From IMG/VR virus record IMGVR_UViG_3300035181_000539, positions 1-33,591 of that record: a stretch of 33,591 bases of DNA; one strand, written 5' to 3'. Position 1 is the first letter of the stretch. Each line of letters starts with the position of its first letter. The notes under the pieces are model-generated. The model made no database searches. It was not told where the DNA came from and worked only from the letters and a program-made list of their open reading frames with translations. Made by a program: the position numbers and the translations under genes. Shown in pieces: positions 11,350 to 33,591 of the stretch. Source of the DNA: a virus.

Positions 11350-13017
11350 TTATGTGTATCCGCTGAAGGCGCGGGTTACGTCGGTGAGCGCGTTGGGCTC
11401 GCCGGTGTTGGCTGCGGCCAGTTTTTGCGCGGTGTCGGCGCCCTGGTTCAGCATGGCGGCCTGCTGCGCTTGCTGCTGCGCTTGGGCGCGTTGCTGACGC
11501 ACGGCTTCCACCTGGTCGGACGGCACGATGATCCTCGGGTCAAGTCCCAGCGAATCGGAATAGATGTCCGCCCACTTGTCGGCGTCGAACTTGTCGAGCA
11601 CTTCGGGCTTGAATTGCGCCACAGATCCAAGGTTGCCGACGAATCGGTCGATGCTGTTGGTGCCAATAGCTCGCTGCGCCTGCGCCAACATGCTGACCAG
11701 CTCAACGTTGATGTCATGGCCTTGCAGCTCCGATGGCGGTGGCGGCATGATGCCCGCCTCCATGACCCTGTCGAAAGTCATCTCGATGAGCGGGTCAAGA
11801 AGCTCGTTTTGCAGCCGTTCCAGCACGGGGCCAAGCATGAGCAGCTTTTCCTCATGCCGCTCGGCCACTTCGGTGGCCGTCATGCGGGCGTCGCTTTGGT
11901 TCGTCAACATGAGGAACAGATCCGCGTAGAAGCTGCCCTCTATGCGCCGGCGCACGTCCTGGATGTCGGCCAGCAGGTGCGACAGGTCAATAGTCACATC
12001 GAAGGCGGTTTTGATGCCGCCATTCGGGCCGGCCATATCCACGTAGGTGACGCCGCCCGGCAGAGTTTCCACGTCGCGGTTTTTCATGCTCGTTGGCACT
12101 TGCAACGGCGGCTTGGTCTTGTAGTCGATGCCCATGGCCTTGCGCAACTGCTCATGCTGTAGCTGCTTGATGTCGCCAAGGGCCTCCATGCCCGGGCTGT
12201 TGCCGTAGATGTCGCCGCCAGATACCGACCAGCGGGGCGCCAATGCGGGGAAGCGCTTAAAGCCGGACTCGCGCAGCACCTCGCCCTCGCGCGCGCCGAC
12301 CTCGAAATAGACCGATTTCCACGCCATGTTGAGGCTGTCGTTCTTGGTCGGGTCGCGGTCGGTGCGGGGCTCTATGCAATGGATGATCGTCACCCACGAA
12401 TCGAGGCTGCCACGGTCATACAGGTTTTTGACCGTGTTGCTCACCTTGTCGATGCCGAATTCGGCGACGATTTCGTGCACGGTTTTCTGAAACTCGCGGT
12501 AGAGCGTAGTCACCTCGCCCTTCCAGTTGGTAGCGATGCAATACTCGCCCGTGGTCAGCGGGTAATGGTGAATGACGTTCTTGAAGTCGGGCGCTACGAT
12601 GCTGGCCGCCGTCCCGAACGCGCCCAATTCCTCGTACATGGAATGCAACGCCCGGTAGGTATTCGAGCGCTGGAAAACGGCGTGCATCAAGCTGGTAACG
12701 TCGTTCAGCCATAGCTTGACGGTATCGTACTTCATGAGGTCCGCATCTGACGTAGCCAGGCGGAACCAGGGGCGCGCCGGGCTGGTCATGCCCGACATCA
12801 TGCCCGCCGCGAGCACGCGCAAGGCGCGCGTACCAGTGCTGTCGTAGATGTTGTTGTGGCGCCGGTTGCCCCGGTTGCGATCCTGGACGAAGAAGCGCCC
12901 GGAACGTGGCAGCAAGTAATCGCTGATTTCCTTCCAGTGCGCCCACCAGGTCGCCCTCTCGGTCTTGAGCTGGCCCCAGCGTGTGAGCAGTTCGGAACGC
13001 GGGGTTTTGTCGGCCAT
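11350..13017 (-). CDS. Portal protein (T7-type head-tail connector)
   Basis: A 555-residue protein with the N-terminal pattern of podovirus connectors: WGQLKTERATWWAHWKEISDYLLPRSGRF, then IYDSTGTRALRVLAAGMMSGMTSPARPWF. A middle stretch matches this family (MEALGDIKQLQHEQLRKA), and the Gln/Ala-rich C-terminus (~505-535) forms the barrel helices. Twelve copies form the ring through which DNA is packaged and ejected. It follows TerS/TerL in the expected order with small accessory genes between. The last ~20 residues are low complexity. The family call is firm. Confidence 0.9.
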   Translation of the reverse strand: MADKTPRSELLTRWGQLKTERATWWAHWKEISDYLLPRSGRFFVQDRNRGNRRHNNIYDSTGTRALRVLAAGMMSGMTSPARPWFRLATSDADLMKYDTVKLWLNDVTSLMHAVFQRSNTYRALHSMYEELGAFGTAASIVAPDFKNVIHHYPLTTGEYCIATNWKGEVTTLYREFQKTVHEIVAEFGIDKVSNTVKNLYDRGSLDSWVTIIHCIEPRTDRDPTKNDSLNMAWKSVYFEVGAREGEVLRESGFKRFPALAPRWSVSGGDIYGNSPGMEALGDIKQLQHEQLRKAMGIDYKTKPPLQVPTSMKNRDVETLPGGVTYVDMAGPNGGIKTAFDVTIDLSHLLADIQDVRRRIEGSFYADLFLMLTNQSDARMTATEVAERHEEKLLMLGPVLERLQNELLDPLIEMTFDRVMEAGIMPPPPSELQGHDINVELVSMLAQAQRAIGTNSIDRFVGNLGSVAQFKPEVLDKFDADKWADIYSDSLGLDPRIIVPSDQVEAVRQQRAQAQQQAQQAAMLNQGADTAQKLAAANTGEPNALTDVTRAFSGYT

Positions 13018-13020
13018 CGG

Positions 13021-13341
13021 TTACTGCCCGAGAAGCGTGTTCTTGCCGAGGTTCAGCATATCCGGCGTGACGCCGGCCGGGCCGGTGAGCATGGTACTTG
13101 ATGGCCCCGCCCGGCCAGCTTGGCCCGCCGCCGAGAGGATGGCCGAGGCGTCGGGGCTTTTCTGGTTGGCGCGGTTGAGCGCCTGGTCCGCGGCAGCGGC
13201 TTGCCTGTCGGCATTGGCCCGCGCTTGATTCTGCGCGCTTTCCTGCGCCTTGGATGCACGCTCGCCCGAATAGATGCTGTACGCCGCGCCGGCAATAGAC
13301 GCGGCGGTTGCTATCGTGGATAGGGTTACTGCCCCAGACAT
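13021..13341 (-). CDS. Small portal-adjacent protein with STMLTG motif
   Basis: A 106-residue protein started at 13341 (AGGGGAA site). A hydrophobic Ala-rich N-terminus (residues 4-24) could be a membrane helix. A Gln/Ala/Asn coiled-coil-like segment follows, then the C-terminal block SSTMLTGPAGV, ending NLGKNTLLGQ. Small proteins with this STMLTG...NTLLG ending occur next to portal genes in BPP-1-type and other podoviruses, where they are virion-associated or hypothetical. I do not know a proven function; a small internal or ejected protein is possible. It ends three bases before the portal ATG. Confidence 0.65.
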   Translation of the reverse strand: MSGAVTLSTIATAASIAGAAYSIYSGERASKAQESAQNQARANADRQAAAADQALNRANQKSPDASAILSAAGQAGRAGPSSTMLTGPAGVTPDMLNLGKNTLLGQ

Positions 13342-13342
13342 A

Positions 13343-13804
13343 TCATTCCCCTGTAACAACGAAATGGTTGACCGCACTCGGTTGGCGCGACAGCAGCAGG
13401 TGCGCCTCCTCGGTGAACTCATCCTCCGCTTCCGCCACCGTCCTGGCGCTTGTAGCGAACACCATAGTCAGGTGCGTATCCTCATGCGCGCAAAATGCTT
13501 GCTTGCGGCCACGGCTGCCGGCGAGCACGTAGCGGCCGCGCATCGTGACGGCATCCCCATCCGTGGAAACCGTCGCATGGCCGTCCATGATGAGCAGCGT
13601 CGGCACACGGATGAGCGCCCCGGTCAAAACGCATCCGGCGGGTATCGTGATCGTTCGCGCGTACATGCCGCCGTGCAGGACGTGGTGCGTTTCGACGGGT
13701 AGCTGCGGCCGCTTTCTGATTTCGTGTTCCAGCCGCCGCAAGCGGTCCACAACCGGCGCCGGCGTGGCGGGCAACTTACCCGCGATCAAGGCCACGTCGC
13801 TCAT
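13343..13804 (-). CDS. Cupin-like phage protein of unknown role
   Basis: A 153-residue protein. A helical N-terminus (VVDRLRRLEHEIRKRPQL) leads to a beta-rich core: HHVLHGGMYARTITIPAGCVLTG, then HATVSTDGDAVTMRG and RKQAFCAHEDTHLTMVF. Together with the spaced His residues this resembles a single-domain cupin, a family that recurs in the late operons of tailed phages. The substrate is unknown. The gene overlaps the GNAT acetyltransferase by four bases, suggesting coupled expression. A metal-bound binding or enzymatic role would be an inference. Confidence 0.6.
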   Translation of the reverse strand: MSDVALIAGKLPATPAPVVDRLRRLEHEIRKRPQLPVETHHVLHGGMYARTITIPAGCVLTGALIRVPTLLIMDGHATVSTDGDAVTMRGRYVLAGSRGRKQAFCAHEDTHLTMVFATSARTVAEAEDEFTEEAHLLLSRQPSAVNHFVVTGE

Positions 13805-14262
13805 GCCAGCTCCCGAAAGAAAACCCGGTTTGTTTCACGCCACCCTTTCGCCTTGCTCATAACCTCCGCCAATCGGCTGCCCGTAGGCGCGGAGATAAAG
13901 AACCCGACGGCCCCCATATCGCGCGCCATGCGCTCTGCTTCACGTTGCAGCATCGGGCCCGCGCCGTTCTTGCGCGCGGCGGCCGTCACGAAAAACGATT
14001 CCGTCGAGGCAATCGGCACCCCGAAATGGGGCACAACCGACACCAGCAGCACCAGAGAGCCGACCAAAACCCCATCCTGGTACGCGCACAACAACCTCGC
14101 CATGCCAGCGGCCTCCATGGCTTCGTACATGCGCCATTGCGGATTGACCGGCCCCAGCCCCGCCGTAGCTGATTCGGCGGCGTACTCCGCCACCAGGTCG
14201 GCGATGTTCGGCGCCTTTTCCAGTTCCCCGAAGGAGCATGGCCTGACGATGGTTTTGTGCAC
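13801..14262 (-). CDS. GNAT-family N-acetyltransferase
   Basis: A 153-residue protein starting at a GTG (14262) after a GAUGAGG-type ribosome site; the nearby ATG is in another frame. LLCAYQDGVLVGSLVLLVSV, then TESFFVTAAARKNGAGPMLQREAE, is the GNAT core: a strand, then the pyrophosphate-binding loop (R/AARKNGAGP), then helix 3. GNAT enzymes use acetyl-CoA to acetylate an amine. Phage GNATs sit commonly beside terminase genes and their targets are unknown. The family call is good. The substrate cannot be read from the sequence. Confidence 0.8.
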   Translation of the reverse strand: MHKTIVRPCSFGELEKAPNIADLVAEYAAESATAGLGPVNPQWRMYEAMEAAGMARLLCAYQDGVLVGSLVLLVSVVPHFGVPIASTESFFVTAAARKNGAGPMLQREAERMARDMGAVGFFISAPTGSRLAEVMSKAKGWRETNRVFFRELA

Positions 14263-14313
14263 GTCCGCCTCATCCTACCAATATAGCGGGCATCGTAGGC
14301 CGCGGCCCGCTCA

Positions 14314-14327
14314 GGTACGTGCACCGC
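14314..14327 (-). repeat. Late-operon intergenic 14-mer, copy B (GCGGTGCACGTACC)
   Basis: Exact match to 10363-10376. It lies in the 71-base gap between the TerL stop and the GNAT start. A potential hairpin (AGCGGGC...GCCCGCT) follows directly on the leftward strand. Function unknown. Confidence 0.5.
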
Positions 14328-14333
14328 TATGCG

Positions 14334-15866
14334 TCAAACGGCATAGGGGTCGTACTCGCGGCGCTGCTTGTTCCTGCCCAGCGCCGCGACTACCGCCCGC
14401 TTCGGGGTATCGATCAGCGCCAGCACGTAGGCGCTTCCATAGTCGGGTGAGCGCCCGATTTTGTCCATGATCTGCTCCCGGCTCGCCACGTAGATGGTGG
14501 AGCCGGACAACTCCCACGTAGGCGCGCATAGGTCGGCGAGAAGGCGCGGATCCGGCGGCAATGCGATGCCCGTGTTGTTGGCCGGGTCCAGGGCCTCGCG
14601 CATGCGCCACCAAAGCTCGCTGCGCAGGTTCTTGAAGCGTAGCCGGCCTGACTTGTCGGTACTGGTAGCCGATTCGGCCACGTTGACGCCGACGACCTGC
14701 TGGCCGGCGTCGTTGAGAAAATCGTAGGGCGCCGAGCCCACGCCGATGACGTCGATGTGGATCACGGCCTGGTCGCGCATCGCTGCAATCGTCAGGCCCG
14801 CAACGGTCGGGCCGTCCGGCGTCGTGCTGCCCGGGTAGACCAGCGGCTCGTCGAACCACGTCCCGTGGCGGCGGGCGATGATGGTGTTGTCGCGCCCGCC
14901 TCTGGCCACGTCCACGCCCAGCGAATCCATTGGCGCCAGCCTGTCCGGCCGCTTCCACCGCGCCTGAGCCGCTTCCACCCAGGCCGTGGGGATGACTTGC
15001 CACGGGTCGTCCTCGATGCCCGCGTTGAAATCGCCGTAGAGCATCTGCGAGCGCAACGGCTCGGGCAGGGATTGCAGTGTTGCCATGTAGCCGGTTCCCA
15101 TCAGGTATGGGTTATCGGAAACGCGCGATGGGATGAACGTGCGGCTCATCGGCTTAATGATGTCGGCGCCGTGCTGGAATGGCTCGCCGCTGGCGACTTC
15201 GACCTCCTCGCCATCGACCATAGCAAACCACCGCAACTCGCCGGGCTTGGCCGGGTTTGGGTGCTTGGGGTCAAGCCACGGCGCGAAGAAGGCCACGATC
15301 CACCGGCCCTCGGCCGTGGTCGGCGGGTTGAAGGTCATCAACACCCGGCAACGCTGGTTGGGAACCGCCGTGCGCAGCCAGCCCATGAGAAAGCGAACCG
15401 CCGATTCGCGCATGTTCGACGCTTCGTCGTAAACGATCAGGTCGTGGTCGCGCCCTTGATACTTGAGCTCATCGCCGGGGTTGGGGAAGCTGCCAAGCTC
15501 TATTTGCCGGCCGTCCAGCCTCCAAATGCGGTCAGCGCCGTTGAAGCCGTCACGGCTGCCAAGGACGCGGGTGATTTCGTCGATGACGCCGGTAAGCTCC
15601 GTGCCATTCTGCCGGAAGATGATCGACTTGCGATGCTGCGTCAGCGCGAGCCCTACGGCCAGGGCGGACTTGCCACCGCCAGCAGCCCCACCGAAGCCGG
15701 TCACGTCAGCAGGCGTGCTGTATGCCTGCGCCTGCGGCCCCGGTAACGGCAACCAAAGCGGGGCGGTAGCCAGCAGGGCGTCTAGCTCCGCGCGCTCCTG
15801 GTCGTTTAGATAAGGCAGCAGCGCTGCGATCTGCGCCGGGCTATACGAGGTCGGCGACGTCCGCAT
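14334..15866 (-). CDS. terL: Terminase large subunit (ATPase/nuclease)
   Basis: A 510-residue protein. The Walker A-like loop is GFGGAAGGGKS (residues 57-67), Walker B is DLIVYDEAS (142-150) and coupling motif FNPP is at 179-182. The C-terminal nuclease has GVDVARGGRDNT (D319, D326), DVIGVGSAPYD and SPDYGSAYVLA acidic positions. It binds the portal and pumps and cuts DNA during packaging. It starts at ATG 15866, overlapping the small subunit by 26 bases, so translation is coupled. Confidence 0.93.
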   Translation of the reverse strand: MRTSPTSYSPAQIAALLPYLNDQERAELDALLATAPLWLPLPGPQAQAYSTPADVTGFGGAAGGGKSALAVGLALTQHRKSIIFRQNGTELTGVIDEITRVLGSRDGFNGADRIWRLDGRQIELGSFPNPGDELKYQGRDHDLIVYDEASNMRESAVRFLMGWLRTAVPNQRCRVLMTFNPPTTAEGRWIVAFFAPWLDPKHPNPAKPGELRWFAMVDGEEVEVASGEPFQHGADIIKPMSRTFIPSRVSDNPYLMGTGYMATLQSLPEPLRSQMLYGDFNAGIEDDPWQVIPTAWVEAAQARWKRPDRLAPMDSLGVDVARGGRDNTIIARRHGTWFDEPLVYPGSTTPDGPTVAGLTIAAMRDQAVIHIDVIGVGSAPYDFLNDAGQQVVGVNVAESATSTDKSGRLRFKNLRSELWWRMREALDPANNTGIALPPDPRLLADLCAPTWELSGSTIYVASREQIMDKIGRSPDYGSAYVLALIDTPKRAVVAALGRNKQRREYDPYAV

Positions 15867-22103: not shown

Positions 22104-22559
22104 ATGTTCCCGATGACCATCACCATCAGCAACCCCGCACAACTCAACGCCGTGATGGCGGCCCTCAACGTCGGAGGCATCGAGTTGCCTAAGACAACAC
22201 CCGTCGCCGAAACCGTCAAGGAAGAAGCCAAGGCAACCAAGACCGAACCGAAGGTCGGGGAAAAGGCCACCAAGACCGAACCGAAGGTCGGGGAAAAGGC
22301 CACCGCTGACCAGAAGCCGGAAGCCCTCGCGCAAATGACGGCCGGCGAAGCCGAAAAGGCCCTGCACGGCCACGCCAACAACCCGGCGCGCGCACCGTCC
22401 TACCAGGACACCGCCGACGCCGTTACCAAGCTGGCCCGCGCCAAAGGCCGCGACGCTGCCGTCGCCGTGCTGGCCAAGTTCGGCGCCGCCAAGCTGCCCG
22501 ACGTGCAGCCCGCGCAGTTCGCCGCCGTGATCGCCGCATGTGAAGAAGCCGGGGCCTGA
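22104..22559 (+). CDS. Hypothetical early protein with duplicated Lys/Thr/Glu linker
   Basis: A 151-residue protein with an AGGAG site. The N-terminus (ITISNPAQLNAVMAALNVGG) is folded. A charged linker follows whose KTEPKVGEKAT unit is exactly duplicated by a 33-bp tandem repeat. The C-terminal ~60 residues (DTADAVTKLARAKGRDAAVA, then LAKFGAAKLPDVQPAQFAAV) form a helical domain resembling the C-terminal modules of phage recombination-associated proteins. The ending is familiar but I cannot name the family. It lies directly ahead of the Cas4-like nuclease. Confidence 0.6.
   Translation: MFPMTITISNPAQLNAVMAALNVGGIELPKTTPVAETVKEEAKATKTEPKVGEKATKTEPKVGEKATADQKPEALAQMTAGEAEKALHGHANNPARAPSYQDTADAVTKLARAKGRDAAVAVLAKFGAAKLPDVQPAQFAAVIAACEEAGA
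22236..22301 (+). repeat. 33-bp tandem repeat, two copies, in coding sequence
   Basis: Two identical 33-base units (22236-22268 and 22269-22301) encode the duplicated KTEPKVGEKAT linker. In-frame length change by slippage would alter only linker length. Confidence 0.8.
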
Positions 22560-23804: not shown

Positions 23805-24052
23805 AAAACCCGCCGCCTGCCAACGTGCCGCCACCGCCTGCCAACGTGCCGCCACCGCCTGCCAACGTGCTGCCACCGGAAGCCAACGTGCCGCCACCGC
23901 CTGCCAACGTGCTGCCACCGGAAGCCGCGCGGCTGCTGCAACAGGCGGCACAAACCCCCATCACGCGGGCCGACCCGCTCGCGCGTGTGAAAGCCATCGA
24001 GAAAGCTACCGAGCGGGTCAAGCGTCAATACCCTCAATTTTTCAAGGAGTGA
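23801..24052 (+). CDS. Proline-rich repeat protein (PPPPANV heptads)
   Basis: An 83-residue protein starting at GTG 23801, which overlaps the nuclease stop (GTGA) and has an upstream GGAGGG. Residues 4-41 are [14 protein letters not shown] heptads made by a 21-bp DNA repeat. Residues 45-83 are a normal basic helical segment ([20 protein letters not shown]). The Pro-rich part is probably an extended linker or a protein-binding tract. The gene sits between the Cas4-like nuclease and the ssDNA-binding protein, so a tether role in recombination is possible. No known family. Confidence 0.6.
23811..23925 (+). repeat. Degenerate 21-bp tandem repeats in a proline-rich gene
   Basis: About five imperfect 21-base units of the type CCTGCCAACGTGCCGCCACC, alternating with CCGGAAGCC variants. 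They encode the [14 protein letters not shown] heptads. Copy number may vary between isolates. Confidence 0.8.
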
Positions 24053-24058
24053 TCCACC

Positions 24059-24607
24059 ATGAAACTGAAACTCAACAACGTTCGCCTCGCCTTCCCCGTG
24101 CTGTTCGAGGCCAAAACCGTGAACGGCGAGGGCAAGCCGGCATTTTCCGCCGGATTCCTGATCGACCCTGCCGACCCGCAGGTGAAGGCTATCAATGAGG
24201 CTATCGAGCAAGTCGCCAAGGACAAGTGGGGTGCCAAGGCCGACGCCATCCTCAAGCAGATGCGCGCCCAGGACAAGGTGGCCCTGCACGACGGCGACCT
24301 CAAGTCCAACTACGACGGATTCCCCGGCAACCTGTACGTGTCCGCGCGCAGCACCACCCGGCCGCTGGTCATCGACAAGGACAAGAGCCCGCTCACCGAG
24401 CAGGACGGCAAGCCCTACGCCGGCTGCTACGTGAATGCCAGCGTCGAACTTTGGGCGCAGGACAACAACTACGGCAAGCGCATCAACGCCAGCCTGCGCG
24501 GTGTTCAGTTCTTCAGGGACGGCGACGCCTTCGCGGGCAGCGGTGCCGCGAGCGAGGACGAGTTCGACGATATCGCCGAAGGCGCTACCGCCGACGATCT
24601 CGTTTAA
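24059..24607 (+). CDS. Single-stranded DNA-binding protein (DUF2815, gp2.5-like)
   Basis: A 182-residue protein. KLKLNNVRLAFPVLFEAKTV, then GKPAFSAGFLID, and a YVNASVELWAQDNNYGKRIN segment are characteristic of DUF2815/gp2.5-type ssDNA-binding proteins with an OB fold. The acidic C-terminal tail (SEDEFDDIAEGATADDLV) is the usual partner-binding tail of SSBs. It follows the Cas4-like nuclease and precedes the DNA polymerase, so it should coat ssDNA in replication and recombination. The ribosome site is AAGGAG. Confidence 0.85.
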   Translation: MKLKLNNVRLAFPVLFEAKTVNGEGKPAFSAGFLIDPADPQVKAINEAIEQVAKDKWGAKADAILKQMRAQDKVALHDGDLKSNYDGFPGNLYVSARSTTRPLVIDKDKSPLTEQDGKPYAGCYVNASVELWAQDNNYGKRINASLRGVQFFRDGDAFAGSGAASEDEFDDIAEGATADDLV

Positions 24608-24613
24608 CCACCC

Positions 24614-24640
24614 AAGCGCCGGCCTTCGGGCCGGGCGCTT
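24614..24640 (+). terminator. Hairpin with UUCG tetraloop, no T run (attenuator or mRNA stem)
   Basis: AAGCGCC-GGCC, loop TTCG, GGCC-GGGCGCTT forms a stable stem with one bulged base at 24614-24640. It is followed by TGGTGAGG, so it is not a classical terminator. It may stabilise the upstream mRNA and reduce expression of the HNH gene. Confidence 0.45.
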
Positions 24641-24697
24641 TGGTGAGGGCGTGAACTCAACTCACACCCTTGCCAAAGCGAACACGGAGAACGCCAA

Positions 24698-25099
24698 GTG
24701 GAAATCTGGAAAGACATCCCCGGCTATGAAGGCCGGTATCAAGTAAGCAACGCGGGCAATGTGCGCTCGCTGGCGCATCGCGTTCGTTTGGTCGCCCATG
24801 GTAAAGAAACGACGAGGCTTTCGCCGGGGCGCATCTTGAAACCGGGGCCGCAACAGTCGGGGCATTTGTCCGTCGCCATTGGCAAGGGTAATTCCCGGCA
24901 AGTTCATCAACTCGTCCTTGAGGCTTTCGTCGGCCCATGCCCGGAAGGCTGCGAGGTGCTACACCTGAACCACAACCCCGCCGACAACCGTTTGGAAAAC
25001 CTGCGCTACGGAACGCGCAGCGAGAACCTGCGTATGGATTACGTCGCCGGCCGCCGTACCGTTCCGAAAAATTTCATCGGGGCAAGGTGGCGCGCATGA
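24698..25099 (+). CDS. HNH homing endonuclease with NUMOD4 domain
   Basis: A 133-residue protein starting at GTG 24698 (upstream GGAGA). The N-terminus EIWKDIPGYEGRYQVSNAGNVRS is the NUMOD4 motif; the HNH part is HQLVLEAFVGPCP, then VLHLNHNPADNRLENLRYGT. The C-terminal NUMOD-type DNA-contact region is short. Such proteins cut intronless copies of a target gene and copy themselves. Its stop overlaps the ATG of the DNA polymerase (ATGA), so it is coupled to a common homing target. Codon use is less GC-biased at its start than in neighbours. Confidence 0.88.
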   Translation: MEIWKDIPGYEGRYQVSNAGNVRSLAHRVRLVAHGKETTRLSPGRILKPGPQQSGHLSVAIGKGNSRQVHQLVLEAFVGPCPEGCEVLHLNHNPADNRLENLRYGTRSENLRMDYVAGRRTVPKNFIGARWRA

Positions 25100-27546
25100 C
25101 CCGCCTGTTTCTTGATCTGGAAACATTTTCAGAAATCCCGATTACACACGGCACCCACGCCTACGCCGAGCACGCGGAAATCATGCTTTTCGCCTACGCC
25201 CTCGACGACGGCCCGGTGCAAGTGTGGGACTGCACCGCCCGGCCCTTGATGCCCGACGACCTCGCCGACGCGCTCGACGACCCGGCCGTCATCCTCTACG
25301 CCCACAACAGCCACTTCGACCGCACCGTCCTGCGCCACGCCATGCCGGAACTGTGCCCGCCGCTGCCCCGCTGGCGCGACACGATGGTCAAGGCCCTGGC
25401 CCATTCCCTGCCGGGCTCGCTGGGCGATCTGTGCGACATCCTCAAGATTCCCACCGACAAGGCCAAGGACAAGGCCGGCCGCCAGTTGATCCACCTGTTC
25501 TGCAAGCCGCGCCCGGCCACCAGCAAGGTGCGCCGCGCCACGCGCGAAACGCACCCCGCCGAGTGGGCCAAGTTCGTAGAGTACGCCGGGCTGGACATCG
25601 AGGCCATGCGCGCCATCGACAAGAAGCTGCCCGCCTGGAACTACCAGGGCGAAGAACTCGCCTTGTGGCACCTCGACCAGGCGATCAACGACCGGGGCTT
25701 TTTGGTTGACCTAGACTTGGCGCACGCCGCCATCCGCGCCGTGGAGCGCGCGCAGAAGGTACTCGCCCACCGCACAAACGAACTGACCGAGGGCGCGGTG
25801 CAGGCGGCCACCCAGCGCGACGTCATGCTCCGCCACCTGGTCGCGGCCTACGGCATCGACTTGCCGGACATGCAGCAGAGCACGCTGGAACGGCGCATTG
25901 CCGACCCCGACCTGCCGGCCGAGTTGCGCGAACTGCTCGCCATCCGCTTGCAGGCCAGTACCACCAGCACCAGCAAGTACAAGACTCTCGCCAATGCGGT
26001 GAGCAGCGACGGCCGGCTGCGCGGCACGCTGCAATTCAACGGCGCCAGCCGTACCGGCCGCTGGGCTGGCCGCCTGTTCCAGCCGCAAAACCTGCCGCGC
26101 CCGGCGCTCAAGCAGGACAAGATCGACATCGGCGTCGAAGCCTTGAAAGCCGACTGCGAGGACTTGCTGTTCGGCAACGTCATGGAACTGACCAGCAGCG
26201 CAATCCGGGGCTGCATCGTGGCGCCCAAGGGCAAGAAGCTGGTGGTCGCCGACCTCGCCAACATCGAAGGCCGGGTGCTCGCCTGGCTCGCTGGCGAGGA
26301 ATGGAAGCTGCAAGCCTTCCGCGATTACGACACGGTGCAGACCGAGGGCGGCCAGTGGATTACCGGCGCCGAACTGGTGGCGGCCTACCTCGAACGGCGC
26401 CCTGTACCGCTGGCGCTCGACGACAAGGGCGAACCCATCCGTAAGGGGCACGACCTCTACAAGCTGGCCTACGCCAAGTCGTTCGGCATCCAGCCCGACG
26501 CCGTGAGCAAAGACCAGCGCCAGATAGGCAAGGTGCAGGAGCTAGCGCTCGGCTATGAAGGCGGGGTCGGCGCCTTCCTCACGTTCGCGGCCGCCTACAA
26601 CATCGACCTCGAAGCCATGGGTGAGCAGGCTATCGGTGCCATCCCCGACGCGACCCTGGGCGAGGCCACCAGCGCGCTGGAATGGACGAAGCAGCAGAAG
26701 CGCCCGACCTTTGGCCTGTCCGACCGCACCTGGCTGGTTTGCGATTCCTTCAAGCGCGCGTGGCGGTACGGCCACCCCGCCATCGCCTCATTCTGGAAGG
26801 ACTTGCAGGACGCCGCCGTGCTCGCTGTGCAGCGGCCCGGCGTGGCCTTCACATGCCGCATGCTCAAGCTGCGCCGCGACGGCGCCTGGCTGCGCATCCG
26901 CCTGCCGTCCGGTCGGTTCCTGTGCTACCCGAGCCCCCAGGTGGATGAAGCCGGAAAGCTCTCGTACATGGGCGTGAATCAGTACAGCCGCAAGTGGTCC
27001 CGTCTCAAGACCTACGGCGGCAAGCTGGCCGAGAACGTGACACAAGCCGTGGCCCGCGACGTGCTGGCCGGAAGCATGCCGGCCATCGAGGCGGCCGGCT
27101 ACCGGATCGTATTGACGGTGCACGACGAAATCATCAGCGAAGCACCGGACACCCCCGACTTAAACGCCGACCACCTGGCCGGCTTGATGGCCACCAACGT
27201 AGAAGAACGAAAGGACTTTGACATGATTGACGCAACAGAACTTCCAGATGGATTTTATAACCTACGCTGCCCGAGAGTTCCAGAGTCTGAAACTTGTTTG
27301 GTGCGCCTGTACACGCCACACGAGCCGCCAGTTCGCGGCATTGGTTTCGGTGTATGGGATGGTGGCGCATTCATGCCACTGGCCGATATTCCCGATGATT
27401 CGCGGCTGATACAGCTGACGATCACGGAAACCCCCGACTTCAACGCCGACCACCTGGCCGGCTTGATGGCCACCAACCCAACCTGGGCCAAGGGCCTGCC
27501 GCTTGCTGCGGCAGGCTTCGAGGCAATGAGGTATCGCAAAGACTAG
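25096..27546 (+). CDS. polA: Family A DNA polymerase with 3'-5' exonuclease and C-terminal in-frame insert
   Basis: An 816-residue protein; ATG 25096 overlaps the HNH stop, and the sequence begins MTRLFLDLETFSEI, the exonuclease I motif (D7, E9). The polymerase part has motif A VVADLANIEGRVLAWLA, motif B-like RQIGKVQELALGYEGG and motif C LTVHDEI (H676, D677, E678). After motif C the segment TPDLNADHLAGLMATN (686-701) is repeated as TPDFNADHLAGLMATN (779-794). Between them lie ~77 residues of unrelated sequence, and the normal ending (TWAKGLPLAAAGFEAMRYRKD) follows the second copy. It replicates phage DNA with the clamp-like protein and helicase. Whether the insert is tolerated is unknown, but the frame is open throughout. 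Confidence 0.92.
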   Translation: MTRLFLDLETFSEIPITHGTHAYAEHAEIMLFAYALDDGPVQVWDCTARPLMPDDLADALDDPAVILYAHNSHFDRTVLRHAMPELCPPLPRWRDTMVKALAHSLPGSLGDLCDILKIPTDKAKDKAGRQLIHLFCKPRPATSKVRRATRETHPAEWAKFVEYAGLDIEAMRAIDKKLPAWNYQGEELALWHLDQAINDRGFLVDLDLAHAAIRAVERAQKVLAHRTNELTEGAVQAATQRDVMLRHLVAAYGIDLPDMQQSTLERRIADPDLPAELRELLAIRLQASTTSTSKYKTLANAVSSDGRLRGTLQFNGASRTGRWAGRLFQPQNLPRPALKQDKIDIGVEALKADCEDLLFGNVMELTSSAIRGCIVAPKGKKLVVADLANIEGRVLAWLAGEEWKLQAFRDYDTVQTEGGQWITGAELVAAYLERRPVPLALDDKGEPIRKGHDLYKLAYAKSFGIQPDAVSKDQRQIGKVQELALGYEGGVGAFLTFAAAYNIDLEAMGEQAIGAIPDATLGEATSALEWTKQQKRPTFGLSDRTWLVCDSFKRAWRYGHPAIASFWKDLQDAAVLAVQRPGVAFTCRMLKLRRDGAWLRIRLPSGRFLCYPSPQVDEAGKLSYMGVNQYSRKWSRLKTYGGKLAENVTQAVARDVLAGSMPAIEAAGYRIVLTVHDEIISEAPDTPDLNADHLAGLMATNVEERKDFDMIDATELPDGFYNLRCPRVPESETCLVRLYTPHEPPVRGIGFGVWDGGAFMPLADIPDDSRLIQLTITETPDFNADHLAGLMATNPTWAKGLPLAAAGFEAMRYRKD
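27151..27198 (+). repeat. 48-bp direct repeat, left copy (polymerase insert boundary)
   Basis: Matches 27430-27477 with one mismatch (A27162 versus C). Offset is 279 bases, exactly 93 codons, so the frame is kept. A looser match extends five bases upstream with one more mismatch. Confidence 0.9.
27223..27546 (+). other. Possible nested in-frame small gene inside the polymerase insert
   Basis: An ATG at 27223, in frame with the polymerase (codon 710), follows a GAAAGGAC ribosome site at a good spacing. It would encode a 107-residue protein starting MIDATELPDGFYNLRCP and including GFGVWDGGAFMPLAD. That segment looks like an independent small phage protein (FYxLR..., GFGVWDGGxFxPLAD) and has lower GC than the polymerase. 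It could be made separately while sharing the polymerase C-terminus. Only the ribosome site and codon pattern support this. Confidence 0.4.
27430..27477 (+). repeat. 48-bp direct repeat, right copy (polymerase insert boundary)
   Basis: Right copy of the repeat at 27151-27198; the true polymerase C-terminus continues from here. Confidence 0.9.
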
Positions 27547-27556
27547 GAGGCACGAC

Positions 27557-27658
27557 GTGAACCGAATCCTCATTGCCCTGCGCCTGTTCGGCTTGTATCG
27601 CCGCGCCGGCAATTTCCTGCGCTACGCCGCTCGCCGCGCCTGGGAGGTATCGGCATGA
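27557..27658 (+). CDS. Very small protein between polymerase and HNH genes
   Basis: A 33-codon frame starting at GTG 27557, with a strong AGGAGG ribosome site overlapping the polymerase stop region, and a TGA that overlaps the ATG of the next gene (ATGA). It encodes an Arg-rich helix (RILIALRLFGLYRRAGNFLR). Both junctions support it as a real translated gene. The amphipathic, basic character would suit a small membrane or DNA-associated peptide. Function unknown. Confidence 0.6.
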   Translation: MNRILIALRLFGLYRRAGNFLRYAARRAWEVSA

Positions 27659-28137
27659 ACATGGAGCGCGCCGCCGAACTCCTAACCTATAACCCGGCCA
27701 CCGGCATCTTCACGTGGAAGGTATCGAGAGGGTGCGCCACGAAGGGCTCACCGGCCGGCACGGTCAGGGGCGACGGATACATCAGCATCCGAGTGGATGG
27801 TGTTCGCTACCTTGCACATCGCCTCGCTTGGTTACTGATCCACGGCGACTGGCCCAAGGGCGAGGTCGACCACATCAACGGAATCCGCTACGACAACCGC
27901 ATCGAGAACCTGCGCGATGTTCCGCGCAGCCTGAACCAGCAAAACCAAACCCGTGCGCAGGCCGGCAACTCGACCGGTGCGCTGGGTGTTTCCACGGCTG
28001 ACGCGAAAGGCCACTTTCGCGCCCGCATTTTCAACAACGGCAAGCAACACCACCTCGGCACGTTCAAAACCGTGGAGGAAGCAAGCCGCGCCTATGTCAC
28101 GGCAAAGCGCCAAATGCATCAAGGAGGGGTTATCTAA
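27655..28137 (+). CDS. HNH homing endonuclease with AP2-like C-terminus
   Basis: A 160-residue protein with a GGGAGG site. LLTYNPATGIFTWKV at the start and EVDHINGIRYDNRIENLRDV in the middle make up the HNH motif. A C-terminal segment (GVSTADAKGHFRARIFNNGK, then HHLGTFKTVEEASRAY) matches the AP2-type DNA-binding domain often fused to HNH homing enzymes. It is the second HNH gene near the polymerase. Its target may be the polymerase gene or a flanking site; this cannot be told from the sequence. Confidence 0.88.
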   Translation: MNMERAAELLTYNPATGIFTWKVSRGCATKGSPAGTVRGDGYISIRVDGVRYLAHRLAWLLIHGDWPKGEVDHINGIRYDNRIENLRDVPRSLNQQNQTRAQAGNSTGALGVSTADAKGHFRARIFNNGKQHHLGTFKTVEEASRAYVTAKRQMHQGGVI

Positions 28138-28139
28138 CC

Positions 28140-28403
28140 ATGCGCGAATCACAGATTGAAAGCTATCTCGTCGAGCGCGTCAAGGCGCTGGGCGGGGAGT
28201 GCAGAAAATTGAAATGGATAGGCCGCCACGGCGCGCCCGACCGCCTTGTCATGCTCAACGGAAAAGCGATTTTCATTGAACTCAAGGCCCCCGGCGAGAA
28301 GTGTCGACCGCACCAAATCCGCGAGCACGAGCGCATGCGCCGCATGGGCCAGCGCGTCGAGGTCGTCGATTCCTTGGATAGCGTCGACGAGGTGCTGGCA
28401 TGA
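28140..28403 (+). CDS. VRR-NUC domain nuclease
   Basis: An 87-residue protein with an AAGGAGGGG site. ESQIESYLVERVKALGGECR, then RHGAPDRLV, AIFIELKAPG and HQIREHERMRRMG are the VRR-NUC signature (PD...(E/Q)xK core: APD, IELK). Small stand-alone VRR-NUC proteins are typical of phage replication regions and resemble Holliday-junction-cutting nucleases. It probably resolves branched DNA during replication or packaging. Confidence 0.88.
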   Translation: MRESQIESYLVERVKALGGECRKLKWIGRHGAPDRLVMLNGKAIFIELKAPGEKCRPHQIREHERMRRMGQRVEVVDSLDSVDEVLA

Positions 28404-28439
28404 GCAAGTGGGACCGAAACCACCATCAAGGAGCAAAAC

Positions 28440-29117
28440 ATGGAAGTCAAAATCACTGTTCCCGCTGAACATATCGCAGTGCTCAAGCTATTCGCGGCTA
28501 GCAATGACATGCGCTACTACCTGAACGGTATCAACCTTGAAATTGGCCGCGCAGAATCGCGCCTTGTCGCAACCAATGGGTACATGCTCGGGTGTTTTCG
28601 CGTCGAAAGCGAGCAACCGGAAGTTACCGCGCCGCTGACCGACATCATTATCCCCAACGACTTGCTCAAGTCGATAAAGCCCAGCGGCATGGTTGAAATA
28701 ACCATCGGCGATCTGGAAACCAAAGACAACGGAAAAGGCGAGCAAGTGCCGGTGCCGAATTCGCGCCAGATAACGCTGACCTATGCCGGCGTGTTGATCA
28801 GCGGCAAAACTATTGACGGCGTTTTCCCTACGTGGCGGAACGTCATCCCCACCAAAGTATCTGGCAAGGCAGCGCAGTTCGACCCGCACTACATCGGCTT
28901 GCTGTCGAAAGCCTGGGCAATCCTGCGCGGCAATAAAGGCGCCCGGTGCGTGGGTATCGGTCATAACGGTGGGGGCGCCGCGTTGATCGACCTTGACGAC
29001 GCTTGCTTTGTCGGAGCCATCATGCCTATGAAGGTTAGCGCGCCTGTATCGCCACCCGATTGGTGGGCCGACAGCTTGCGCGTCGCCGCCGACTCGGCGG
29101 CTGAGGGGTTAGTCTGA
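28440..29117 (+). CDS. DNA polymerase III beta-clamp-like protein
   Basis: A 225-residue protein with an AAGGAG site. LEIGRAESRLVATNGYMLGCF matches the strand-turn pattern of the DnaN clamp (…LxATDGxRL…), and TIDGVFPTWRNVIP is the GxFPDWxxVxP motif between clamp domains. The length corresponds to a shortened clamp with fewer than the usual three domains (a normal beta clamp is ~370 residues). It could load on DNA as a multimer to add processivity to the phage polymerase, or block host replication by competing with the clamp. The homology is good; the role is inferred. Confidence 0.75.
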   Translation: MEVKITVPAEHIAVLKLFAASNDMRYYLNGINLEIGRAESRLVATNGYMLGCFRVESEQPEVTAPLTDIIIPNDLLKSIKPSGMVEITIGDLETKDNGKGEQVPVPNSRQITLTYAGVLISGKTIDGVFPTWRNVIPTKVSGKAAQFDPHYIGLLSKAWAILRGNKGARCVGIGHNGGGAALIDLDDACFVGAIMPMKVSAPVSPPDWWADSLRVAADSAAEGLV

Positions 29118-32145: not shown

Positions 32146-33216
32146 ATGCTTTGCATGCGCCCGAAATCAAACCACCGCGACTTGCCGCCCAGGATGCTGC
32201 GCCGCGTGCGCACCCTGAAAAGCGGCAAGGTTTGGGAATCCTTCTACTATAATGGTCGCGACGCCGAAGGGCGCCGGGTCGAGATTCCGCTCGGGCACGA
32301 TCTGAACGAGGCCAAGCGCAAGTGGGCCGAGTTGGAGTGCCGCGCGGCGCCGGCGGAAACCGGCTTGATGCGGTTCGTGTTCGACCGCTACGAGCGCGAC
32401 GTGATACCGACCAAGGCGCCCAGGACGCAGAAGGACAACCTCGGGTGCCTCGTCATGCTGCGCAAGGTATTCGACGCGGTGGGCATCGACACCATCACCC
32501 CGCAACACGTGGCGCAGTATCGGGACCGGCGCGGCCTCAAGGCCCCGGTGCGGGCAAATCGTGAAATCGCGCTGCTCTCCCACGTGTGGAACATGGCCCG
32601 CGAGTGGGGCTATACCGCCAAGGAAAACCCGGTCAAGGGCGTGCGCAAGAACAAGGAAAAGCCCCGCGACTTCTACGCCGACGACGCCGTGTGGTCCGCC
32701 GTGTTTTCCGCAGCGTGCGTCGAGTTGCAGGACGCCATGGACCTGAACTATCTCACCGGCCAGCGGCCGGCCGACGTGCTCAAGATGCGCTTCGCCGACA
32801 TCAAGGACGGCGCCATCGAGGTGCAGCAAAACAAGACCAAGAAGCGCCTGCGCATTCTGCTGGACGACGAAGGCACGCGCACCGAACTGGGCAAGGTCAT
32901 CGACCGCATCAAGGGCCGCGAACGCAAAGTGGCTAGCCTGTTCCTCATCTCCACGCCGGCCGGCAAGGCGCTGAACAAATGGACGCTGCGCACCCGGTTT
33001 GACGACGCGCGCAACGACGCCATCAAGAAGGCCACCGAAGCCGGCGACGACGCCCTCGCCGCAAGAATCCGCGCCTTTCAGTTCCGCGACATCCGGCCCA
33101 AGGCCGCCAGCGAACTGCCGCTCGAACATGCCAGCAAGCTGCTGGGTCACACCGAGCACGCGATAACCGAGAGGGTGTACCGTCGCGTGGGCGAGATCGT
33201 GAAGCCGACCAAGTGA
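32146..33216 (+). CDS. int: Tyrosine-recombinase integrase
   Basis: A 356-residue protein; ATG 32146 or 32155. The N-terminal part carries a basic arm (RVRTLKSGKVWESFYYNG), a core-binding helical domain (~75-170) and the catalytic domain. Catalytic set: R207 in TGQRPADVLKMRF, K near 230-232 in QNKTKKRL, then FQFRDIRPKAASE (R314 where HxxR families have His; R317), H335 in LGHTEHA, and nucleophile Y345 in TERVYRR. The FRDIR variant occurs in other prophage integrases. It lies next to the tRNA and attachment junction, with a terminator after it. Confidence 0.9.
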   Translation: MLCMRPKSNHRDLPPRMLRRVRTLKSGKVWESFYYNGRDAEGRRVEIPLGHDLNEAKRKWAELECRAAPAETGLMRFVFDRYERDVIPTKAPRTQKDNLGCLVMLRKVFDAVGIDTITPQHVAQYRDRRGLKAPVRANREIALLSHVWNMAREWGYTAKENPVKGVRKNKEKPRDFYADDAVWSAVFSAACVELQDAMDLNYLTGQRPADVLKMRFADIKDGAIEVQQNKTKKRLRILLDDEGTRTELGKVIDRIKGRERKVASLFLISTPAGKALNKWTLRTRFDDARNDAIKKATEAGDDALAARIRAFQFRDIRPKAASELPLEHASKLLGHTEHAITERVYRRVGEIVKPTK

Positions 33217-33267: not shown

Positions 33268-33357
33268 TGGCGGAAGCGGTGAGATTCGAACTCACGGAGG
33301 GTTTCACCCCTCGGTGCTTTTCAAGAGCACTGCCTTAAACCACTCGGCCACGCTTCC
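33268..33357 (-). tRNA. tRNA-Ser (anticodon UGA), intact
   Basis: On the minus strand a 90-base tRNA including CCA. Acceptor GGAAGCG pairs with CGCTTCC, D-arm GCC...GGC, anticodon stem GTGCT/AGCAC around CTTGAAA (anticodon TGA), long variable arm GAGGG...CCCTC, T-arm GTGAG TTCGAAT CTCAC, and ending GCCA. All stems pair, so it should be functional. Its acceptor differs from that of the truncated tRNA-Ser at 33465-33503. Confidence 0.93.
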
Positions 33358-33503: not shown

Positions 33504-33591
33504 AAGGGGCGGCATTCTAGCTTGGCTTGGCGCGAGTTCGAAACCGTGATTTCTGAACCGCGCTCGGGTGGTCAGGCTAACGGTCATGACC
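33504..33591. other. Probable bacterial flank upstream of the disrupted tRNA
   Basis: No gene is supported here. Leftward, a TAGAAT-like -10 (about 33515-33520 on the minus strand) lies upstream of the truncated tRNA and may be its promoter. It is too short to identify the host. Confidence 0.4.

Follow-up and report, generated by a model that had tools for sequence, protein, structure and literature searches.

Our analysis of a 33,591-nucleotide stretch of viral DNA (IMG/VR record IMGVR_UViG_3300035181_000539; hereafter the window) revealed a family A DNA polymerase gene that carries a short foreign gene within its reading frame, set between two copies of a direct repeat. We propose that this gene was probably captured through microhomology-guided illegitimate recombination between phages, with two junctions. 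Read most simply, the locus is an unusually clear instance of ordinary, sloppy phage gene swapping. Phage mosaics generally come to notice only once their junctions have eroded and the partner can no longer be named; in this locus the unoccupied site, a near donor, the duplicated stretch and one of the junctions are legible almost base by base.

The polymerase gene and its foreign insert

The gene hosting the insert (Table 1) is assigned to the BPP-1/Rauchvirus type of family A polymerases, with profile, motif A and C residues and exonuclease residues in agreement. It matches phrog_17 DNA polymerase (E=5.6e-114) and, above the cut-off, Pfam DNA_pol_A, and Foldseek searches with its predicted fold returned Klenow, Bst and phage G20c Pol I. 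Residues D7, E9, D75, D386, H676 and D677 are present and invariant across an alignment with 54 relatives. The relatives come from IMG/VR contigs and prophage-bearing genomes, with Betaproteobacteria predominating, and the gene is one expected to be essential. The polymerase of Bordetella phage BPP-1 (bbp42) is an ortholog, with 74% identity over the aligned part and the same gene neighbourhood; in BPP-1, however, the site is empty, the insert is absent and no HNH genes are annotated beside the polymerase. Since BPP-1 has a diversity-generating retroelement, such an element was considered as the agent of insertion and rejected, there being no reverse transcriptase in the window, its sister contig G001 or the contig with the related gene (L003).

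Table 1. Features of the polymerase locus in window coordinates
Feature	Position	Strand	Description
Free-standing NUMOD4-HNH endonuclease gene	24698..25099	+	Overlaps polymerase start; Pfam HNH_3, NUMOD4
Family A DNA polymerase with 3'-5' exonuclease region	25096..27546	+	816 aa, insert inside; PHROG, Pfam, Foldseek, residues
Motif C (VHDE)	27118..27129	+	Shortly upstream of insertion; H676, D677, E678 invariant, 54 polymerases aligned
Repeat copy 1 (APD-TPDLNADHLAGLMATN)	27146..27198	+	Derived TTA (Leu) at 27160-27162; close relatives TTC (Phe)
Left junction bases GTAGAAGA	27199..27206	+	8 bases, unmatched in L003 and polymerase relatives
Captured foreign segment	27207..27434	+	228 bp, 95.6% identical (10 differences) to L003 5003-5230
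Shine-Dalgarno-like AAAGGA of captured gene	27210..27215	+	Seven bases before ATG 27223; -5.3 kcal/mol duplex
Potential nested ORF	27223..27546	+	107 aa; captured gene start fused to polymerase C-terminus
Right junction, donor CGGAAACCCC vs polymerase CGGACACCCC	27425..27434	+	9/10 match; 5 bp exact, 27430-27434
Repeat copy 2	27425..27477	+	Ancestral Phe codon (TTC) kept; runs into native C-terminus
Conserved polymerase C-terminus (PTWAKGLPLAAAGFEAMRYRKD)	27478..27546	+	Common to relatives
Free-standing HNH-AP2 endonuclease gene	27655..28137	+	Downstream of polymerase; Pfam HNH_3, AP2 below cut-off

The insertion point is empty in 78 of 78 polymerase loci that span it (the window's own phage excluded), a set that contains some near-duplicates and therefore fewer independent lineages than 78. 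The insert is thus no common feature of the polymerases of this group, and the original prediction, that the ancestral polymerase ran from the repeat directly into its conserved C-terminus, holds at every one of these sites. The ancestral order is VHDE...EAPDTPDFNADHLAGLMATNPTWAKGLPLAAAGFEAMRYRKD, and the alignments across it are ungapped except in L069, which has one extra residue. Judged from these comparisons, the insert is derived; the match to L003 described below marks it as foreign. Apparent longer matches in L007, L008, L013, L014 and L081 are chance extensions beyond the polymerase stop codon and represent no further inserts.

The GC content of the insert is 52.5% (GC3 49%), against 66.4% (GC3 88%) in the upstream polymerase, in agreement with the lower GC noticed at the outset. 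An IMG/VR scan with the 77 insert residues alone, and repeats of it, found two contigs only: G001 (42.3 kb), which is the same phage, and L003 (39.4 kb), an otherwise unrelated phage contig. In L003 the insert exists as a free-standing gene that has a DNA methyltransferase gene on one side and lysis genes on the other (names read from translations), with AAAGGA at equal spacing before its start codon and an ORF ending in ITETPNA*; this gene bears out the original idea that a small phage gene had been captured together with its ribosome site. The foreign cassette, first taken to be the ~231 bp between the repeat copies, is now better described as 228 donor-homologous bp preceded by eight unmatched bases. 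Beyond the 228 bp, the whole L003 contig has no DNA match to the window, and it has no polymerase match except the insert; the small gene is also absent beside relatives of the L003 methyltransferase in other phages.

Seven of the 10 differences between window and L003 fall at codon position 3 of the polymerase frame, in which 5 codons changed synonymously and 4 non-synonymously; the corresponding counts for the other frames are 0/9 and 2/8. This excess at third positions indicates that the polymerase frame is the captured gene's real frame, and that a real coding gene was moved. Beyond G001 and L003 the small protein is an orphan: searches of phages, plasmids and 84,980 genomes gave no relatives, distant ones included, and neither Pfam nor PHROG has a family that matches it. 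Two weak PDB sequence matches to designed SAKe proteins were dismissed as chance, and the structure model of the small protein alone has a pLDDT of 44.

The repeat, its junctions and the probable mode of capture

The repeat proved to be as originally described, 48 bp with one mismatch (27151-27198 versus 27430-27477; 27162 A, 27441 C), in frame and 279 bp apart, and it extends to 53 bp with 2 mismatches (96% identical). Its exact part covers 36 bp (27163-27198), and a match of this length within 5 kb cannot be chance. The spacing corresponds to 93 codons, with the polymerase frame open through both copies. Relatives have TTC (Phe), like copy 2, and we therefore take the mismatch in the core to be a later mutation in copy 1. 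The second mismatch lies at 27429, where the window has A, the donor's base; five common bases follow, which places the right crossover within 27430-27434. The left crossover is less precise, because L003 differs by 4.4%, leaves the eight left-junction bases unexplained and hence is not the true donor. At the level of sequence, the right junction can thus be placed within a few bases and the left within eight.

We infer that template switching was the act of capture. During copying or repair of the end of the polymerase gene, a strand would have departed after ...GCCACCAAC (27198), traversed ~230 bp of the donor's small gene, ribosome site and start codon included, and re-entered the polymerase at a short match (CGGAMACCCC), with the crossover 48 bp upstream of the point of departure. 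Re-entry upstream of departure would duplicate 48 bp. The frame would have been kept by happenstance, the resulting unit being 279 bp long, and by sequence both the frame and the catalytic residues are intact.

Could the small gene instead have come from a partner phage that already carried it beside a copy of this polymerase sequence, the ~50 bp serving as the site of general recombination, as has been proposed for gene 68 of mycobacteriophage Island3? The architecture is that of Island3 gene 67/68, with its ~60-bp repeat, and the two flanks of the insert have different nearest relatives: copy 2 and the downstream flank are closest to L009-type relatives (92%), the upstream flank to L006 (87%). 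The IMG/VR matches include no such partner, however, and the L003 gene has no adjoining polymerase. In addition, ACCCCCGAC is present in both repeat copies and absent from the closest relatives, so that the copies look like one lineage, and illegitimate recombination would in any case be needed to join gene and polymerase for the first time. On this comparison, we consider an exchange with a pre-assembled partner rather unlikely.

An assembly or library chimera would fit the fact that the evidence comes from metagenome contigs only and that both insert-bearing contigs, the window and G001, terminate at window base 33591. Against this, the 5-10 bp junction matches and the 36-bp exact repeat fall below the word sizes with which assemblers usually work, the L003 copy of the donor gene shows differences, the frame and catalytic residues are intact, and two contigs that differ by 161 bases elsewhere carry an identical insert. 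These 161 substitutions all lie in 2.1 kb (12409-14553), the window and G001 being otherwise identical. Differences gathered in one tract mark the two as distinct strain-level assemblies, both with the insert; they may not be fully independent, given the same end base and perhaps a shared source. An artefact is unlikely, and a chimera of this kind very much so. The divergent tract itself covers structural and packaging genes and looks like an allele exchange. Elsewhere in the window, a tRNA-Ser (tga) gene at 33268-33357 directly follows the integrase gene (32146-33216) and is a likely attachment site.

The HNH genes on both sides of the polymerase (24698, 27655) had been put forward as candidate cutting enzymes. 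They could have cut or nicked DNA in or near the polymerase end, with error-prone repair of a staggered break inserting the donor segment and filling in the ~48-bp duplication. The locus is often hit by mobile elements in relatives, with HNH genes in or beside the polymerase and intein-like insertions in L070, L076 and L089, and 29% of the IPA-HNH genes in a published survey have a DNA polymerase gene nearby (PMC10448857). Homologues of both genes, however, occupy the same positions beside empty sites (82% for the upstream HNH gene in L014, 92% for the downstream one in L013), which indicates that flanking HNH genes are insufficient for the insertion and does not support them as the cutters. 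The captured gene is no endonuclease, and no cut site was found. The HNH enzymes may have helped to start the break; the full repair scenario appears improbable to us.

A mobile element with target duplication, be it a transposon, an intron, an intein or an element with a hidden endonuclease such as the ShiLan domain, is extremely improbable. The in-frame insertion, the lack of internal stops and the internal start do recall ShiLan, but the four alternative-frame ORFs of the insert match no endonuclease family. No inverted repeats that pair the insert ends were found, as a transposable element would carry, and an Rfam search of 24600-28600, up to E=1, gave no match, be it to a group I or II intron or to any other family. 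The 77 residues between the copies have no Pfam match and are fewer than in any known mini-intein. The one other known copy of the segment, in L003, lies outside any repeat context. Some relatives do appear to harbour such elements: in the polymerases of L070, L076 and L089, intein-like insertions several hundred residues long immediately precede the conserved NxTQAxxRDV motif, with the insertion point between its N and C/xTQA, and in L048 (2995-5561) an HNH gene splits the polymerase into two ORFs, which could mean either that a group I intron is present or that the polymerase is truly split.

A scan of ~0.96 Mb (window and related loci) for similar repeats brought up no second gene whose repeat copies enclose an in-frame ORF. 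Several repeats of other kinds were noted. The first 600 bases of L036 (the same in L037 and L038, and partly in L033) are apparently non-coding, sit upstream of a small coding gene and contain 41-bp and 21-bp exact direct repeats ~300 bp apart, possibly a structured RNA; the 41-bp repeat in L036-L038 lies outside the polymerase and has no comparable gene between its copies. Downstream of the polymerase, L026 (6358-7263), L045 (6559-7332) and L050 (2457-3262) have 30-58 bp coding-like repeated segments that resemble lectin-like or variable-region paralogues. Short tandem repeats, in frame, occur in early genes of the window itself (22230-22304 and 23852-23926).

Predicted consequences for the polymerase and the captured gene

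How may the polymerase accommodate the insert? In the AlphaFold2 model, pLDDT is mostly about 90 or higher in the polymerase body, drops from 72 to 52 along copy 1, stays at 35-52 in the insert and is mostly 92-94 from residue 781 onward, in copy 2 and the C-terminus. The model suggests that copy 2 takes the native position of the last helix, and that copy 1 and the insert form an additional loop that follows the motif C hairpin; its preference for copy 2 is biased by the aligner, which placed the relatives on copy 2, and is supportive rather than proof. The original view that the cassette entered after motif C, kept the frame and regenerated the C-terminus stands, with one refinement: what follows motif C in sequence behaves, in the structure model, as an additional loop that separates the motif C hairpin from the last helix. 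With an intact last helix and C-terminal strand provided by copy 2, the enzyme can be presumed to function despite 93 additional loop residues, and we infer that its activity has been retained.

The captured gene has no stop codon of its own, and its reading frame continues into polymerase sequence. The ribosome site and the start codon in front of it arrived with the donor gene. The site at ATG 27223 is moderate, ranking 4th best among 55 in-frame internal starts, and is similar to those of some likely genes of the window. The captured gene is best regarded as a passenger and not as a selected nested gene. A working nested gene, yielding a ~12 kDa product beside an active polymerase, with repeats that make the cargo precisely reversible, seems to us unlikely. 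If it were true, a protein consisting of the small-gene body and the polymerase C-terminus would be made from its own ribosome site, and the loss of one repeat unit would return the ancestral polymerase, in frame. The locus offers a testable case of an insert as passenger, as new polymerase loop or as nested gene. It also shows how, by way of a small duplication, a polymerase frame can take in a foreign gene and keep its C-terminus.

Relation to known systems

According to the original prediction, a capture of this kind would be a new way to carry cargo, a claim that is not supported in this form, a similar case having already been published. In mycobacteriophage Island3, the orphan gene 68 is flanked by a ~50-60 bp repeat of the 3' end of gene 67, and the phage's close relative Brujita has a single copy and lacks gene 68 (PMC3029335). 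Island3 and the window share a small orphan gene, a duplication of the upstream gene's 3' end around it, of ~50 bp or so, and relatives with a single copy. In Island3, however, each of the two genes remains an ORF of its own, no donor is known and the direction of the event could not be settled (PMC3029335), whereas in the window the insert lies in frame inside the polymerase with no separate stop, L003 provides a related donor gene and the direction can be read clearly.

Two other comparisons are instructive. The ShiLan domain is a non-spliced in-frame insertion in phage DNA methylases that hides an out-of-frame HNH endonuclease (PMC11855218). Like the window insert, it is a stop-free insertion in a phage DNA enzyme, has a second ORF with a start and is predicted to loop out; unlike it, ShiLan is spread among several phage clusters, and the part of its description considered here mentions no flanking duplications (PMC11855218). 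The ORF of the window insert is in frame, encodes no endonuclease, is flanked by repeats and is found in one phage lineage. Phage morons, for their part, resemble the insert as single small genes of foreign composition with their own translation signal, absent from relatives, but their place is between genes, and a promoter and a terminator typically accompany them, whereas the captured gene sits within a coding frame and no longer has its stop codon. The case described here is no new kind of element; it combines features of Island3 and ShiLan, and adds to them a near donor and a clear direction.
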